A stretch of DNA of 64,000 nucleotides from Gammaproteobacteria bacterium (GTDB lineage Bacteria; Pseudomonadota; Gammaproteobacteria; Pseudomonadales; Azotimanducaceae), in assembly GCA_007694905.1 (NCBI GenBank), contig REEU01000200.1, positions 1 through 64,000 of the forward strand, in the 5' to 3' direction. The first letter of the stretch is position 1. Each line of letters begins with the position of its first letter. Below the pieces are notes generated by a model. It was not told the DNA's origin and searched no databases. It was given only the letters and a program-made list of their open reading frames with translations. A program made the translations under genes and the position numbers. This document shows, in pieces, positions 6,186-11,726 of the stretch.

Positions 6186-7103
6186 TCAGGGCTTGACGAA
6201 CTTGAGCGTCATGCGATCGGATTCGCCGATGGCCTGATACTCCTGACGGCACAGGTCCCGCTCAGCTTCATCCTCAATGTCGGCGCAGGCGCGAAAACTC
6301 GGCGGCAGAGTCCACACGCCGTGCTCGTGATCCGCGCTGTCCAGTGGGTTGGCGTTGATCTCACTGCGCGCTTCGAGTTCGAAGCCAGCGCCTTCGGCAG
6401 CTTCGATCACGAACGCCTCCGGGATATAGCCGGTGCGTTGGCCCGGATCAAAGTCCTGCTCCGGCGGCAACCGATGCTGGATCACGCCGAGCACGCCACC
6501 GGCTGCGAGCACTTCGAACGCTGCTGCCAGCACCTGGTCGTGAATGTCGCGGGCCACAAGGTTGTGGAAGTGCCTGGACAGCAGCACCAAGTCGGCGCTG
6601 CCCGCCGCACCCAGGGTCATCTGGTCCGGCGGAGCAAACGTCACCATGTTCACGCGGCCATAGACGTCCGGTTCCGCCTCGAGCTTGTCCACCAGCGCCT
6701 GTCCCATACGGGCGACGCCACCCGCCTCAGGGTCGGTGGTGAAGTTGGCCACCACGAGCTGGCCCTGGTCATGCAGCACGGGCGCGAGGATCTCGGTGTA
6801 CCAGCCTCCACCGGGCCAGATCTCGACCACCGTGTGATCGGGCTCGAGGCCGAAGAACGCGAGCGTCGCCACCGGATTGCGGTAACGGTCACGGGCGCGG
6901 TTCGACTCCGAGCGATGATCGCCCACCGTGGCTTCCTGCAGCAGGCTGCGAATGTCCTGGGCAGGCCGTCCGGGCCGCTCAGGCTCGCTGCGTTCCGGGC
7001 TCGCTGCCGGATCGGTCACCGGCGCAGGTTGGGGGGGGTCGGATGGGCCACAGGCTGTCATCAGGACTGCCACAAGGGGCAACAAAAGGTCACGCGGGCG
7101 CAT
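6186..7103 (-). CDS. Lipoprotein with class I methyltransferase-like domain
   Basis: This 305-residue protein starts with a lipoprotein signal (MRPRDLLLPLVAVLMTACG, lipobox TAC), so it is probably anchored to an envelope membrane. The remainder resembles the group of predicted SAM-dependent methyltransferases that carry export signals: VATLAFFGLEPDHTVVEIWP takes the place of the usual GxGxG, followed by PGGGWYTEILAP and a later DLVLLSRHFHNL. SAM is not normally available outside the cytoplasm, so the activity of this family is uncertain. The longer frame adds 14 residues upstream, but ATG 7103 gives a clean signal peptide. It is divergent from the phosphatase at 7291. Confidence 0.75.
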   Translation of the reverse strand: MRPRDLLLPLVAVLMTACGPSDPPQPAPVTDPAASPERSEPERPGRPAQDIRSLLQEATVGDHRSESNRARDRYRNPVATLAFFGLEPDHTVVEIWPGGGWYTEILAPVLHDQGQLVVANFTTDPEAGGVARMGQALVDKLEAEPDVYGRVNMVTFAPPDQMTLGAAGSADLVLLSRHFHNLVARDIHDQVLAAAFEVLAAGGVLGVIQHRLPPEQDFDPGQRTGYIPEAFVIEAAEGAGFELEARSEINANPLDSADHEHGVWTLPPSFRACADIEDEAERDLCRQEYQAIGESDRMTLKFVKP

Positions 7104-7290
7104 CGATGCTATCTCCGGAAGGATGACGAATCGTAACCGTAACACGATGTTATGCCTGCGGCGTCGTGATTGCCCAGCTCGCCCGGTGCCGGTATGTTGC
7201 CGGCTTCATGACCACCCTGGGGAATTGTTCATGCCCGGTCTGTTTCATACCGTACTCCTGATCCATGCAGATTCGGGTCGGGTCTGAGCT

Positions 7291-7989
7291 GTGACCACCA
7301 ATCAGCAGGAGTATCGTCAGCCGCGATTCGCGCCACCGCCTGGGGCGACTGAGGTGTTGCTGGTCCGGCACGGCGAGTCCAGGGCAGCAACGCCGGACAA
7401 TCCTTTTCCCCTGGTGGACGGCCATGGCGATCCAGAGTTGCATGCGAATGGCCGCGCCCAGGCGGAGCTGGTGGCACATCGGCTCTACAATGAGCCCCTG
7501 GCGGCGATCTACGTGTCGAACCTGCGCCGCACCGGCGAGACGGCCGCTCCGTTGTGCCGCCAGCTCGGATTGGAACCCCGCATCGATCCTGACCTGCGCG
7601 AGGTCTGTCTCGGCGACTGGGAAGGAGGCCTGTTCCGGATCAAGGCCCATGAGGGTGACCCGGTCTACCTGCGCATGCAGGCGGAGGAACGCTGGGACGT
7701 GATTCCCAACGGCGAATCCAACGATGCGCTGTCGGCCCGGCTCAGCGCCGCCCTCGCTCGCATCCGCCAAGCCCATCCTGATGCGCGGGTCGCGGCATTC
7801 GTTCACGGTGGCGTCATCGCCAACATTCTGCACATGGCCACCGGCTCCCGACCCTTTGCGTTCACGGGGGCGGCGAACGGTTCCATCAGCCACATCGTCC
7901 TCCTCGAGGATCGCATCATGGTGCGCAGTTTCAATGACTGCGCCCACTTGGCGGAGACCATCGTCCCCGGGGACAGCCAGCTGACCTGA
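7291..7989 (+). CDS. Histidine phosphatase family protein
   Basis: This 232-residue protein belongs to the histidine phosphatase (phosphoglycerate mutase-like) superfamily. It shows the catalytic LLVRHGES near residue 25, the supporting SNLRRTGETA with its arginine, the glutamate region LREVCLGDWEGG and the second catalytic histidine in AAFVHGGVIANIL. The enzyme would form a phosphohistidine intermediate on a small phosphorylated metabolite or an alcohol phosphate. The substrate is unknown. The frame starts with GTG at 7291, and no better start fits because the RHG motif begins soon after. It stands alone, with the amidohydrolase following 66 bases later on the same strand. Confidence 0.88.
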   Translation: MTTNQQEYRQPRFAPPPGATEVLLVRHGESRAATPDNPFPLVDGHGDPELHANGRAQAELVAHRLYNEPLAAIYVSNLRRTGETAAPLCRQLGLEPRIDPDLREVCLGDWEGGLFRIKAHEGDPVYLRMQAEERWDVIPNGESNDALSARLSAALARIRQAHPDARVAAFVHGGVIANILHMATGSRPFAFTGAANGSISHIVLLEDRIMVRSFNDCAHLAETIVPGDSQLT

Positions 7990-8055
7990 TTGCGCGGTCA
8001 AGCGTCCATTCAGGGTATCCTCAGGCCGTGAATGGAAGACGCGAGGTCTTACGTC

Positions 8056-9453
8056 ATGCTGGCCCCTGAGCGACACTGCATTGCGTTGCTGACCCTGTTG
8101 TTTGCGCTGGCCGAGGCGCTGGCCGCGGAACCACCAGTGGCGCAGGACATCGCCTTCATCAATGCCCGCGTCCTGACCATGAACGAGCCGGAGGCGCTCG
8201 ATGGGCAAACGGTCATCGTCCGCGATGGTCGCGTCCATGCCATCGGGCCGACCACCGAGTTGCCCCCCGGTCCAGAGGACAGGGTCATCGACGCCGGGGG
8301 ACGCACGCTGATGCCAGGGCTGGCAGAGATGCACGCCCACGTCCCCGTCCCTCAAGGTCCGAATCAGCCGCCCGGCTATACCCAGGACGTGCTCATGCTC
8401 TGGGTTGCTAACGGCGTGACCCTGGCGCGGGGTATGCTCGGCCATCCGCTGCATCTGGAGCTGCGCGATCAGCTCGAGCGCCATGAGATCCTCGGTCCGC
8501 GCCTGATCACCTCAGGGCCGTCGTTCAGCGGCCAGTCGGTCGATCACCTCGCAGCCGCTGCCCACCGGGTCGCCGCGCAGGCGGAAGCAGGTTACGACTT
8601 CCTCAAGATTCATCCCGGGCTCAGCCGGGAGCAGTATGACGCCATCGTTGCGGCCGCGGATGCTGCCGACATCCGGCTTGCCGGTCACGTGCCCGTTGAC
8701 GTGGGATTGCCGCGGGCGCTGCACGCCGGGCAGGAAACCATCGATCATCTCGATGGCTACATCCATGTGCTGGCCCAAGATCTCGATGAGCACGAGGCGG
8801 CCGCGCACGCCTTCTTCGGCGCCGCGCTCACGCCCCACGCCGATCGTGAGGCCATCGTCGCGGCGGCCGCCGAGACGCGTAACAGCGGTGCTGCAGTGGT
8901 GCCCACGGAAACCCTGTTCGAGAACTTTCTTGCCGCGGTGGAGGACTTCGATGCCCTCCGGGAGCGACCGGAAAACGTCTACCTGCCGCCGGCGCTGAAG
9001 GCGGCCTACATGGCGCGCCTGGCGCATGCCGGTGCCATGGCAGATAGCCTCGGGGACTTCGTGGCGCTGCGCAAGGAGATCATCGGCGCCTTGCATCGTG
9101 CCGGGGTTCCGATACTGCTCGGTGCCGACTCGCCACAGATCATGAATGTTCCGGGCTTTGCCACTCACAGGGAACTCGAGGCCATGGTCGCATCCGGTCT
9201 GAGTCCGTTTGCAGCGCTGGCATCGGGGACCGTTGCACCGGCACGTTTCTACGGGGCGGAGGGCCGCTACGGGAGCATCGTTCCCGGTGCCGATGCGGAT
9301 CTGATCCTGTTGCGCGAGGATCCGCTCGAGGATATCCGCCACACGCGCAGCATCGACGGCGTCATGGTCCGAGGACGCTGGCTGGAACGTGACTTTCTCG
9401 ATGCTGAGCTGAAAAGGATCCGGCAGCGCTACGCGGCGCTTCAGCATGAGTGA
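8056..9453 (+). CDS. Exported amidohydrolase family protein
   Basis: This 465-residue metal-dependent hydrolase has an N-terminal signal peptide (hydrophobic ALLTLLFALAEALA followed by a likely cleavage site) and then an amidohydrolase superfamily barrel. Metal-binding elements are EMHAHVPV (HxH), FLKIHPGL with a lysine that may be carboxylated, ADIRLAGHVPVDVG, the following histidine in TIDHLDGY, and the late aspartate in LLGADSPQ. The imidazolonepropionase/prolidase-like group hydrolyses cyclic amides or peptides in the periplasm. I chose ATG 8056, preceded by GAGG at 8043, over ATG 8032. The next thing downstream is a truncated gene and an IS fragment, so any original operon partner may be lost. 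Confidence 0.85.
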   Translation: MLAPERHCIALLTLLFALAEALAAEPPVAQDIAFINARVLTMNEPEALDGQTVIVRDGRVHAIGPTTELPPGPEDRVIDAGGRTLMPGLAEMHAHVPVPQGPNQPPGYTQDVLMLWVANGVTLARGMLGHPLHLELRDQLERHEILGPRLITSGPSFSGQSVDHLAAAAHRVAAQAEAGYDFLKIHPGLSREQYDAIVAAADAADIRLAGHVPVDVGLPRALHAGQETIDHLDGYIHVLAQDLDEHEAAAHAFFGAALTPHADREAIVAAAAETRNSGAAVVPTETLFENFLAAVEDFDALRERPENVYLPPALKAAYMARLAHAGAMADSLGDFVALRKEIIGALHRAGVPILLGADSPQIMNVPGFATHRELEAMVASGLSPFAALASGTVAPARFYGAEGRYGSIVPGADADLILLREDPLEDIRHTRSIDGVMVRGRWLERDFLDAELKRIRQRYAALQHE

Positions 9454-9600: not shown

Positions 9601-9872
9601 TGACCTCTGAAATGGACCCCACCACCTGGACAGCGTGAACCCGCTGATAAGTGGAATCTTCTGCACTACAGTAAGCCAAGGCTCAGAGGAGCAGAAGATG
9701 ACCCGACGCAAACGACGCAATCACACTGCAAGCTTCAAGGCCAAGGTAGCCCTGGCCGCCCTGCGCGGTGACAAGACCGTCGCCGAGCTCGCCCAGCACT
9801 TCGATGTCCACACCAACCAAATCCAGGAGTGGAGGCGCCGCCTCCTGGAACAGGCCTATGATGTCTTCGAAG
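9601..9872 (+). mobile_element. Truncated IS3-family insertion sequence (left part only)
   Basis: The element begins with TGACCTCTGAAATGGACCCC at 9601, a TG-starting end typical of IS3-family terminal inverted repeats, followed by a short leader and the first part of orfA. Homology to OrfA fades near 9872. The orfB integrase and the right terminal repeat are missing, so it is an immobile remnant. It separates a truncated gene from the selenoprotein unit, so the present promoter of the latter may lie in or just after the IS sequence. The right boundary is approximate. Confidence 0.75.
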
Positions 9873-9907
9873 GTAAGGCCTCATCGTCAACGGGAGCACG
9901 ACTATGA
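9698..9907 (+). pseudogene. IS3-family transposase OrfA, 3'-truncated
   Basis: The frame from ATG 9698 (GAGGAGCAGAAG precedes it) encodes the N-terminal helix-turn-helix of an IS3-type Orf[21 protein letters not shown], then [19 protein letters not shown] and [14 protein letters not shown]. Intact OrfA proteins are about 90-100 residues long. Here the family match stops after about residue 58, the last dozen residues come from unrelated flanking DNA, and the stop overlaps the start of the selenoprotein gene by 4 bases. No orfB is present, so no functional transposase can be made. Confidence 0.8.
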
Positions 9908-10437
9908 TCCATTACCACGACCCGAGAGCACCCTCCGCCACGCCCGTGACGGCCTATGGCCTGCACACCGAGCTGCGCGGAAGCAATCAGTCCCACATCG
10001 GTTTCCTCGCCAACGGCTTCCCGGACTCCGAAGCCTTTCTCGAACAGGTGGCGAACGCCATGCAAACGCGCCTTCCTGGCATGACGCCTGCCTTCTGGAA
10101 CAAGGGCAACGCGTCCATTCCCGCGCCGGCGGACATGCTTGAGGATATTCAGGACCGCTGTTCTGCCCTTGTCGCCGCCTACGGGCACTGAGGCAGCTGC
10201 ACCACCGGCACCGTGCGTGACGGTATCGCAGCAGCTCGGCTCGGCATTCCCGCAGTGGCGCTCGTGACCGATGACTTCTGGTCCCAGGGTGACTTCGTCG
10301 CCCAATCCCTCGGTATGCCCGACGTGCCACGGGTGCGCCTGCCCCACCCCGTCGCCGGCACGGGAGCCGGCAACCTGAAGCTGGTGGCGGAAGCGGTGGC
10401 GGACGCCATCATCGATGCATTGGAGGGGCGCTCGTGA
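9904..10437 (+). CDS. UGSC-motif selenoprotein (TGA 10189-10191 read as selenocysteine)
   Basis: Read through the in-frame TGA at 10189-10191, this gene encodes 177 residues with selenocysteine at position 96 in the motif U-G-S-C (TGA GGC AGC TGC), followed by [20 protein letters not shown]. This matches the UGSC family, known from metagenomic selenoprotein surveys as a selenoprotein or cysteine-form protein of unknown, presumably redox, function. A bSECIS-like hairpin follows the TGA. The frame after it continues without a stop until it overlaps the next gene's GTG. GGGAG at 9892 supports ATG 9904. A plain gene caller would report two separate ORFs. Selenocysteine insertion needs selA, selB, selC and selD, none of which lies in this window. 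Confidence 0.88.
10189..10236 (+). promoter_or_regulatory. bSECIS-like element after the UGA codon
   Basis: Directly after the TGA lies a two-part stem: AGCTGC (10195-10200) pairs perfectly with GCAGCT (10231-10236), and inside it ACCGT (10210-10214) pairs perfectly with ACGGT (10220-10224) around the loop GCGTG. The apical loop begins with G and lies 23 bases after the UGA. Both features match the published bacterial SECIS pattern (a guanosine among the first two loop bases, loop about 16-37 bases from the codon). The inner region between the stems is unpaired. Confidence 0.75.
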
Positions 10438-11501
10438 ATTCGCTGCTCAGCGCGGAAAGTGAAGAAGCAGCCCTTGAACATCTCCATGCCGCGGGCTGCA
10501 CCGACGGACTGCCCGTGGTCGTGCCCACGCCGGAACGGGTGGAACGCATGCTGCTGGCCAGTGGCCTCGACGGCGATTTGCTGCTCGGCGAAATGGGACC
10601 GGGGGGCGGCGTGGCCAGCGCGCGCCATGTCGCCATCGCAGCCGTCATGGCGGGCTGCCTGCCGGACTACATGCCGGTGGTGGTGGCTGCGGTGAAAGCA
10701 GTCATTGATCCGCGCTTCGACCTCACCGAGATGCAGGCGACCACCCACTGCACGGCACCGCTGATCCTCGTCAACGGTCCGGCCCGCACCGACTGCGGTC
10801 CCATTGCGTCCGGATTCGGCGCCCTTGGCCCAGGCTTCCGCGCTAACGCGAGCATCGGCCGTGCCCTGCGGTTGGCGATGATCAATATCGGTGGCGGTCG
10901 ACCCGGAAGTTCCGACATGGCCCTGCTCGGTCATCCAGGGAAATTCACCTACTGCCTGGCCGAGGATGAAGAGCACTCGCCGCTGCCGCCGCTGCACGTC
11001 GGCCTCGGCTTCGAGGCCAACGACAGCGTCGTCACCGTCATCGGTGCCGAGGCACCCCACTCGGTGATCTTCAGTGCCACTGGTGACGCCAACGCGGATG
11101 CGGAGGGACTGCTGCACGCGCTTGCGGCGGCGCTCGGTCATCTCGGCGGCAACAACGCCATTCTCACCGGCGGCTCCGCCGTAGTCGTTCTCAATCCCGA
11201 TCATGCCCAGACCCTGGTCTCTGCGGGCCTTGATCGCGCCTCGATCCAGGCGCGGCTCCATGCCCTGTGCGCACATCCCGTCGGTACCCTGAAACGGCTG
11301 GCGCCGGCGTTCGCCCGCGGCGATGACGACAGCAAGCTGCGACATTGCTTCCAGGCGCCGGAGGACATTCTGGTGCTGATGGCGGGAGGGAGCGGCCTGT
11401 ACTCCATGGTCATGCCCACATGGTGCGCCGGGCCTCACCGCAATCGGGCGGTCAGCGTCAAAGTGGACCTGGATCTGTTCTGTGAACTACCGGGAGCCTG
11501 A
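10434..11501 (+). CDS. Partner protein of the UGSC selenoprotein
   Basis: This 355-residue protein starts with GTG 10434, which overlaps the selenoprotein stop (GTGA), with GGAGGGG eight bases upstream, so the two are translationally coupled. It has the pattern I associate with proteins encoded beside UGSC genes: CTDGLPVVVPTPERVERML at the start, AAVMAGCLPDYMPVVVAAVK, TTHCTAPLILVNGP, and GRALRLAMINIGGGRPGSSD with a later glycine-rich GGSAVVVLNPDHA. Several conserved cysteines are present (in AGCTDG, AGCLPD, TTHCTA and FTYCLAED). The function is unknown. A joint catalytic or redox role with the selenoprotein is an inference from the coupling. Confidence 0.8.
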   Translation: MNSLLSAESEEAALEHLHAAGCTDGLPVVVPTPERVERMLLASGLDGDLLLGEMGPGGGVASARHVAIAAVMAGCLPDYMPVVVAAVKAVIDPRFDLTEMQATTHCTAPLILVNGPARTDCGPIASGFGALGPGFRANASIGRALRLAMINIGGGRPGSSDMALLGHPGKFTYCLAEDEEHSPLPPLHVGLGFEANDSVVTVIGAEAPHSVIFSATGDANADAEGLLHALAAALGHLGGNNAILTGGSAVVVLNPDHAQTLVSAGLDRASIQARLHALCAHPVGTLKRLAPAFARGDDDSKLRHCFQAPEDILVLMAGGSGLYSMVMPTWCAGPHRNRAVSVKVDLDLFCELPGA

Positions 11502-11555
11502 AACCGGCCCACACCGGATGCATTCCTGCAGCATCCCGCGTAGTCTGGGCTCTGC

Positions 11556-11664
11556 ACGGAGCCGGGGTGGCCCGTGTGACCGAAGCCGAGGCGAGGTTGC
11601 ACAGGACCTGAGATCACACCCGCGAACCTGATCCGGATAATGCCGGCGCAGGGAGCAACGTTCG
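11556..11664 (+). promoter_or_regulatory. TPP riboswitch (THI element)
   Basis: The leader before thiD contains the conserved THI-box blocks in order: GGGGTG near the 5' end, CCTGAGATCACACCC, then GAACCTGATCCGGATAATG followed by CCGGCGCAGGGA. These are the pyrimidine- and pyrophosphate-sensing helices of the thiamine pyrophosphate riboswitch. About 60 bases separate it from the ATG at 11727. In proteobacteria it represses expression when TPP is abundant, by hiding the ribosome site or by termination. It should control the whole thiD-to-tenA operon. Confidence 0.93.
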
Positions 11665-11726
11665 CTTGCCGCAATGATCTCAAAGCCTCCGATCCGTGAC
11701 TGCGTTCAGCTGTCGCGAGGTCACCT

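Follow-up and report, generated by a model that had tools for sequence, protein, structure and literature searches.

The UGSC proteins were in print as a selenoprotein family by 2008 (PMC2398784) and are represented by models in both Pfam (PF24696) and NCBIfam (NF041046). In the 2008 article, UGSC ranks with the selenoprotein families that are most abundant in the Global Ocean Sampling data, is grouped with thioredoxin-like redox proteins, is expected to have a thioredoxin-like fold, and is reported fused to a conserved domain called 'Unknown_1'. Its function is still described as largely uncharacterised in PMC13188914, which also gives the motif of GrdB, the selenoprotein of glycine reductase, as UxxCxxC. 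The chain that feeds glycine reductase runs through thioredoxin reductase, thioredoxin, GrdA, and GrdB (PMC3091704). The thioredoxin feed is likewise stated in PMC10298544, where D-proline reductase is described as NADH-dependent and thioredoxin is ruled out for it. The accessible portions of the open-licence literature (including PMC2398784, PMC13188914, PMC9312934, PMC5029168, and PMC7539508) yielded no statement on a relation of UGSC to GrdB, on trxB neighbours, or on what UGSC does.

Here we analysed a stretch of 64,000 nucleotides (the window; contig REEU01000200.1 of assembly GCA_007694905.1, a gammaproteobacterium of the Azotimanducaceae) that carries a UGSC gene. The initial annotation, made from the letters of the window, put its interest in a hidden selenoprotein and thereby overrated the novelty, the family having been published and modelled. 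The interest of the locus lies in the partner gene next to UGSC and in the tie of UGSC to GrdB.

The UGSC gene and its predicted fold

The UGSC gene occupies 9904..10437 (+) and encodes 177 residues, with the in-frame TGA at 10189..10191 (+) as the codon of selenocysteine U96 of U-G-S-C and the TGA at 10435-10437 as stop. The layout given in the initial annotation was borne out: two open reading frames, 9904-10191 (95 aa and the TGA) and 10213-10437 (74 aa from a GTG), lie in the same frame, and the TGA and exactly seven codons (10192-10212) stand between them. The joined frame reads TTGTVRDGI directly after U96-G-S-C and stays open until its stop, with which the start codon of the following gene (GTG, 10434) overlaps. 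GGGAG at 9892..9896 (+), read by eye and present also in the relative L105, is the probable ribosome-binding site. The PF24696 match of the joined frame (144.9 bits, E 3.5e-42; Pfam gathering score 25) extends from residue 18 to residue 174 and so takes in both flanks of the TGA; in homologues of 55-90% identity, a TGA occupies the same place. Therefore, the split frame is not due to chance.

The window protein scored 96.9 bits with NF041046, the UGSC equivalog of NCBIfam, and its relatives with cysteine in place of selenocysteine, L082 and L083, scored 98.3 and 94.9 bits, all under the cut-off of 125. Members of other subgroups passed it (L041, 128.3 bits; L020, 147.7 bits). Since PF24696 was passed and the NF041046 cut-off was missed by the window protein, L082, and L083, the window protein is, by these sequence models, a member of the Pfam UGSC family outside the NCBIfam equivalog. 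The string TTGTVRDGI had been taken as the hallmark of the UGSC family; it is present here, but it marks the subgroup of the window only, the 31 loci L020-L050 reading UGSC(S/T)(T/S)CS(V/L)HD. Accordingly, the motif of the window's subgroup is UxxCxxG, with the third cysteine absent, and that of L020-L050 is UxxCxxC. The window protein thus adds to a kind of selenoprotein that is already known, and its subgroup falls short of the NCBIfam cut-off.

The AlphaFold2 model of UGSC (mean pLDDT 95.1) has five alternating strand-helix units, and U96 immediately precedes the third helix. The best Foldseek match had E 6e-4 and TM 0.48, and flavodoxin-like and other Rossmann-type folds were listed. The best VIA-align match, a designed protein, had Z 11.2 and rmsd 3.2 over 125 residues, followed by many rows of Z 9-10. 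The top structural matches were flavodoxin-like, PurE-like, or CheY-like. The thioredoxin fold has its elements in an order other than five alternating strand-helix units. These models suggest that the fold of UGSC is flavodoxin-like and probably not thioredoxin-like. Neither GrdB nor thioredoxin was among the structural matches listed for UGSC, an absence that excludes nothing. Searches of solved structures by sequence gave no match for UGSC at E<=1 and none for the GrdB/PrdB set.

We compared a profile of 48 UGSC proteins (alignment A1, drawn from 60) with one of 15 GrdB/PrdB-like proteins of the same bacterial family (alignment A3, drawn from 19) using hhalign. The alignment spans 91 columns (probability 92.5, E 4.9e-7), with selenocysteine falling on selenocysteine and HPVAG on HPLGD; this is one profile comparison and concerns the C-terminal half only. 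A full-length GrdB (L085) reached 17.9 bits (E 0.0035) with the UGSC Pfam model, below the cut-off. No PF07355 match was found in the window protein, for which PF24696 alone was reported, nor in its own genome. Among the 206 genomes of the family, 142 have PF07355 matches; 18 of the 19 read (L086-L104) are short PrdB-like selenoproteins with U-P-x-C, which match the part of the PF07355 model up to the selenocysteine. The sequence comparison suggests that UGSC is GrdB-like, and we think it probable that it is a relative of the selenocysteine domain of GrdB without being a member of PF07355.

Neighbouring genes and the partner gene

The gene downstream of UGSC, hereafter the partner, occupies 10434..11501 (+). 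To survey the surroundings of the pair, we used public plasmid records with a partner match, of which there are 24; 17 were opened, and two of them (L148, L152) show no annotated gene in the stretch. The selenocysteine position is occupied by Cys in 11 of the 17 plasmid loci and by TGA in three (L148, L149, L162). In the other three, tblastn found no UGSC: L156 and L158 are divergent fusions, and L151 has the partner alone. A TrxB relative was found in 7 of the 17 plasmid loci vs 4 of 44 other loci; three of the four share the genus label g29 and are perhaps one event, and the 44 count both L081 and L105, apparently one contig. In terms of sequence covered, the plasmid loci gave 7 matches over 297 kb and the other loci 4 over 532 kb, as raw counts without a formal control. 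The TrxB relative adjoins the pair in Roseovarius, Arthrobacter (trxB-trxA-partner-UGSC), Haloterrigena, and Neorhizobium (in an unannotated stretch). Four TrxB relatives were tested against the NCBIfam TrxB cut-off, two scoring over it and two below, and no trxB match was found within the window (E<=1e-5). In Arthrobacter sp. ERGS1:01 (L153 9015-9830), the UGSC protein encoded beside trxB and trxA is of the Cys type and carries a NifU-like domain (27.2 bits) at its C-terminus. We regard a link of UGSC to thioredoxin as an evenly balanced proposition.

The other plasmid neighbours comprise CoA transferases, CoA ester lyases, isocitrate-lyase-like enzymes, and amidohydrolases, together with solute-binding proteins of TRAP, tripartite, or ABC systems. 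This set of CoA enzymes, amidohydrolases, and solute-binding proteins indicates uptake and breakdown of organic acids. Of 41 loci, 11 have a cluster named by eye as acyl-CoA dehydrogenase and 10 have one named likewise as CoA transferase; such genes are common, and these are uncontrolled counts. Two more specific functions were considered and set aside. Thiamine was rejected because, in a comparison of 41 loci, no more than 5 had the downstream thi genes. A hydroxyproline/proline pathway, suggested by aconitase X (Vibrio, Sporomusa) and ornithine cyclodeaminase (Variovorax) near fused forms, was too thinly supported.

The UxxC motif and the trxB neighbours would also fit a UGSC that acts as a thioredoxin-like redox protein, the group in which the accessible portion of PMC2398784 places it. 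The predicted fold resembles flavodoxin-like folds, the profile alignment is to GrdB, and the neighbours at the plasmid loci are largely catabolic; given these points, we consider the thioredoxin-like reading unlikely, although it retains more weight than the other alternatives discussed below.

The partner encodes 355 aa of no named family and starts at a GTG overlapping the UGSC gene. Among the 206 same-family genomes, UGSC is present in 179, the partner in 181, and neither in 25; in these counts, the negatives include 7 and 5 genomes that the search output did not name and whose status was deduced from missing numbers, with consistent totals. The partner is present in all 179 UGSC-bearing genomes (179/179), and two of the 181 partner-bearing genomes have no UGSC (G008, a weak match, and G135). 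Loci picked by UGSC (L020-L050) have the partner in 30/31 cases, and loci picked by the partner (L051-L080) have UGSC in 28/30, the two misses lying at contig ends. In the fused frames L140 and L141, UGSC comes first, as in the gene order of the window. Fusions of 545-574 aa from Vibrio, Sporomusa, and Variovorax plasmids also have UGSC at the N-terminus, the Vibrio one at 24.9 bits vs the cut-off of 25. Unfused pairs with the partner first occur as well (L020, L022). UGSC and the partner are very probably linked as a pair, and the UGSC gene of the window is the first gene of a two-gene module of UGSC and partner. The 'Unknown_1' domain of the 2008 report (PMC2398784, accessible portion) is likely the present partner.

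Alignment A2, made from 43 of the 65 partner entries read, shows Cys75 and Cys174 to be near-invariant, each kept in 42/43 members. No credible Pfam match was obtained for the 43 members scanned, no NCBIfam match for the window copy, and nothing credible among solved structures by sequence. The predicted structure of the partner has pLDDT 89.7. Its best Foldseek match, at E 9.5e-4, is a fumarate hydratase, but with TM 0.26 and rmsd 15, and VIA matches did not exceed Z 5.5 (Z <=5.5). Fumarase and cyclic amide hydrolase folds, the best matches at low TM, were not accepted, and the partner is treated as unmatched. The roles in the pair could also be reversed, with the partner as the catalyst, weakly similar in structure to class I fumarase and perhaps a hydratase or lyase, and UGSC delivering electrons, sulfur, or a metal. 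The fumarate hydratase match, the two near-invariant cysteines, and the neighbours in acid metabolism speak for such an assignment; the TM, rmsd, and Z values of the structural matches are within chance likeness, and we consider it improbable.

Decoding of the TGA and state of the window copy

The minimum folding energy of four stretches around the TGA was no lower than that of shuffled sequences (z -1.04 to +1.09). Because the folds were no more stable than shuffles, we used conservation at synonymous sites instead, leaving out sequences with N or with at least 97% protein identity to one already kept, so that 26 of 28 sequences remained for the window's subgroup (window included) and 25 of 31 for L020-L050. 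Codons +6 to +10 past the TGA (GGC ACC GTG CGT GAC; 10207-10221) were identical in 26/26 sequences of the non-redundant subgroup, synonymous positions included. Mean codon identity in the subgroup was 0.765 for the 12 conserved residues at +1 to +13 vs 0.417 for the 68 that lie outside this stretch (p 5e-5 in a one-sided Mann-Whitney test). The second set, 25 sequences from L020-L050, gave 0.760 vs 0.402 (p 0.003), at the same place with different letters. Judged from these sequences, the frozen block probably sits where a bacterial SECIS should lie. Around it, CCG.CAC-CGUGC-GUG.CGG at 10205..10223 (+) forms the probable apical hairpin of a bacterial SECIS. This 6-bp hairpin with GU in the loop is common to the 15 sequences folded (alignment A5, 15 of 28 subgroup sequences), and it shows no covariation, its pairs being invariant or nearly so.

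Upstream of the UGSC gene, homology to the same-genus genome L105 (G056) ends at window position 9603 and resumes at 9890. The interval in the window, 9604..9889 (+), is a 286-bp remnant of an insertion sequence containing the start of transposase orfA (HTH_Tnp_1). It replaces about 2.9 kb of the relative, so that the window has lost the greater part of a 770-aa gene and the whole of another, of 239 aa, which in the relative ends 26 nt before UGSC. The window and L105 share 14 nt only before the UGSC ATG, GGGAG included, and a consensus scan found no sigma-70-like site upstream of the UGSC gene. Downstream of the pair, a TPP riboswitch at 11553-11671 (+) precedes thiD and a thi cluster; a default Rfam scan misses it because its score of 53.3 bits is just under the gathering score of 54.3.

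The same genome has a second UGSC-partner pair on contig C8 (L139; UGSC at 8076-8573, partner at 7069-8019), which belongs to another subgroup, has the partner first, and carries a TGA within UGSCTSCSLHD. The two UGSC copies, of different subgroups, are 23% identical. The window copy might be decaying or silent, its upstream genes and promoter having been replaced by the insertion sequence remnant and the work being done by the pair on C8; the lack of a sigma-70-like site in the consensus scan would agree with this. Against it, neither frame is disrupted, the ribosome-binding site and SECIS block persist, the partner is 93% identical to that of the relative, and the two UGSC copies belong to different subgroups. 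We doubt, on this evidence, that the window copy is decaying or silent.

The genome of the window (5.05 Mb in 315 contigs, 96.7% complete) contains the machinery for selenoprotein synthesis, in line with the prediction of the initial annotation that this organism makes selenoproteins: selA, selB, the gene for tRNA-Sec, and a gene for an Ndh-SelD fusion all lie within 7 kb on contig C189. SelA (TIGR00474, 545 bits) and SelB (TIGR00475, about 406 bits) scored over their cut-offs, the latter curated, and tRNA-Sec with the anticodon tca was detected by both Rfam (66.7 bits) and ARAGORN. The SelD part of the fusion scored 204 bits with TIGR00476 (cut-off 125), and the fusion scored 458 bits with TIGR04369 ('fusion_not_SelD'), under the model cut-off of 700. 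With selB and selC (tRNA-Sec) both present, the absence that had been named as a ground for refuting a selenoprotein was not found. In the family, 161/206 genomes have selB at E<=1e-70. At that strict threshold, 147/179 UGSC-bearing genomes have it and 32/179 are without it (G075, G076, G077, G079, and 28 others, some of them at least 90% complete); these may have a divergent or split selB, or may hold selenoprotein genes without the machinery.

Of 64 loci read, two copies of the window and L081 (whose contig appears to be that of L052) were set aside, and the codon at position 96 was compared among the remaining 61 distinct homologous loci. It is TGA in 58/61 and TGC in 3/61. The second ground for refutation, close relatives with truncated proteins and a sense codon other than that of Cys or Sec at this site, was likewise not encountered, TGC (Cys) being the sole non-TGA codon and the proteins being full-length. 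The three TGC loci belong to a Rhodospirillaceae MAG, Sphingobium subterraneum, and a Cryobacterium MAG (51, 40, and 33% identity, respectively), and the partner gene lies downstream of UGSC in all three. With the machinery in the genome, the TGA and TGC codons of the homologues, the synonymous constraint, and a second UGSC gene with TGA, we regard it as almost certain that 9904-10437 is one gene whose internal TGA is read as selenocysteine. That the TGA is a true stop, a sequencing error, or a recent nonsense mutation leaving a truncated gene would follow from the default genetic code alone, and this reading is already contradicted by the TGA at the same place in 58/61 distinct loci from many genomes and by the presence of selA, selB, selC, and selD, so we give it virtually no weight.

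As the initial annotation had anticipated, routine annotation splits such genes or cuts them short. Paracoccus ferrooxidans plasmid pFER4 (L162 7396-7965) lists two 'hypothetical proteins', and in Acidovorax sp. T1 plasmid p2-T1 (L149 8248-8538) the annotated gene goes no further than the TGA. On pFER4, selB is annotated about 4.4 kb from the UGSC gene.

Proposed function and comparison with known systems

Because of the trxB neighbours, the tie to GrdB, and the thioredoxin feed of glycine reductase, we favour, as the reading with rather better than even prospects, that UGSC and the partner form a (seleno)cysteine reductase of the GrdB-like type, fed by thioredoxin and engaged in the catabolism of organic acids. 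UGSC would work like the selenocysteine domain of GrdB. The selenolate of U96, placed just before a helix of the flavodoxin-like fold, would attack a substrate that the partner holds or shares with UGSC; U96 and C99 would then form a selenenylsulfide, which thioredoxin and thioredoxin reductase would reduce again. The Cys forms would perform the same chemistry with sulfur, and the pathway would most likely be the catabolism of some organic or amino acid. A further-reaching proposal, which we put forward only tentatively and hold to be doubtful as a whole, is that the pair represents a new two-component enzyme class: a (seleno)cysteine reductase derived from GrdB and fed by thioredoxin, with a partner of unmatched fold. 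In aerobic bacteria and haloarchaea, it would break a carbon-heteroatom bond during the degradation of organic or amino acids. The partner, present in every UGSC-bearing genome among the 206, the GrdB-like active-site domain, and the recurrent trxA/trxB neighbours turn a selenoprotein of unknown role into a hypothesis testable with two purified proteins.

Compared with the UGSC family of 2008 (PF24696, NF041046; PMC2398784, accessible portion), the window protein has in common the sequence family, the U-G-S-C motif, the occurrence of Sec/Cys pairs, and the fusion to a second domain. It differs in that its subgroup is without the third cysteine and scores below the NCBIfam cut-off. Trx/Prx-like selenoproteins have the UxxC active-site motif in common with UGSC, but the predicted fold of UGSC, being flavodoxin-like, differs. 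Unlike GrdB and PrdB (PF07355, TIGR04483), UGSC is without the N-terminal GRDB domain and has another partner and other neighbours, among which no pyruvoyl-type subunit was noticed. The UxxCxxG of the window's subgroup differs from the motif of GrdB, and PrdB-like proteins also read without the third cysteine. As for likenesses, UGSC aligns with the C-terminal selenocysteine domain of GrdB/PrdB and has UxxC, an HP-type motif, and a C-terminal helix in common with it; the UxxCxxC of GrdB recurs in other UGSC subgroups (L020-L050), and thioredoxin genes stand near UGSC in some relatives. If the proposed two-component class were real, glycine and proline reductase would have an aerobic counterpart in it.
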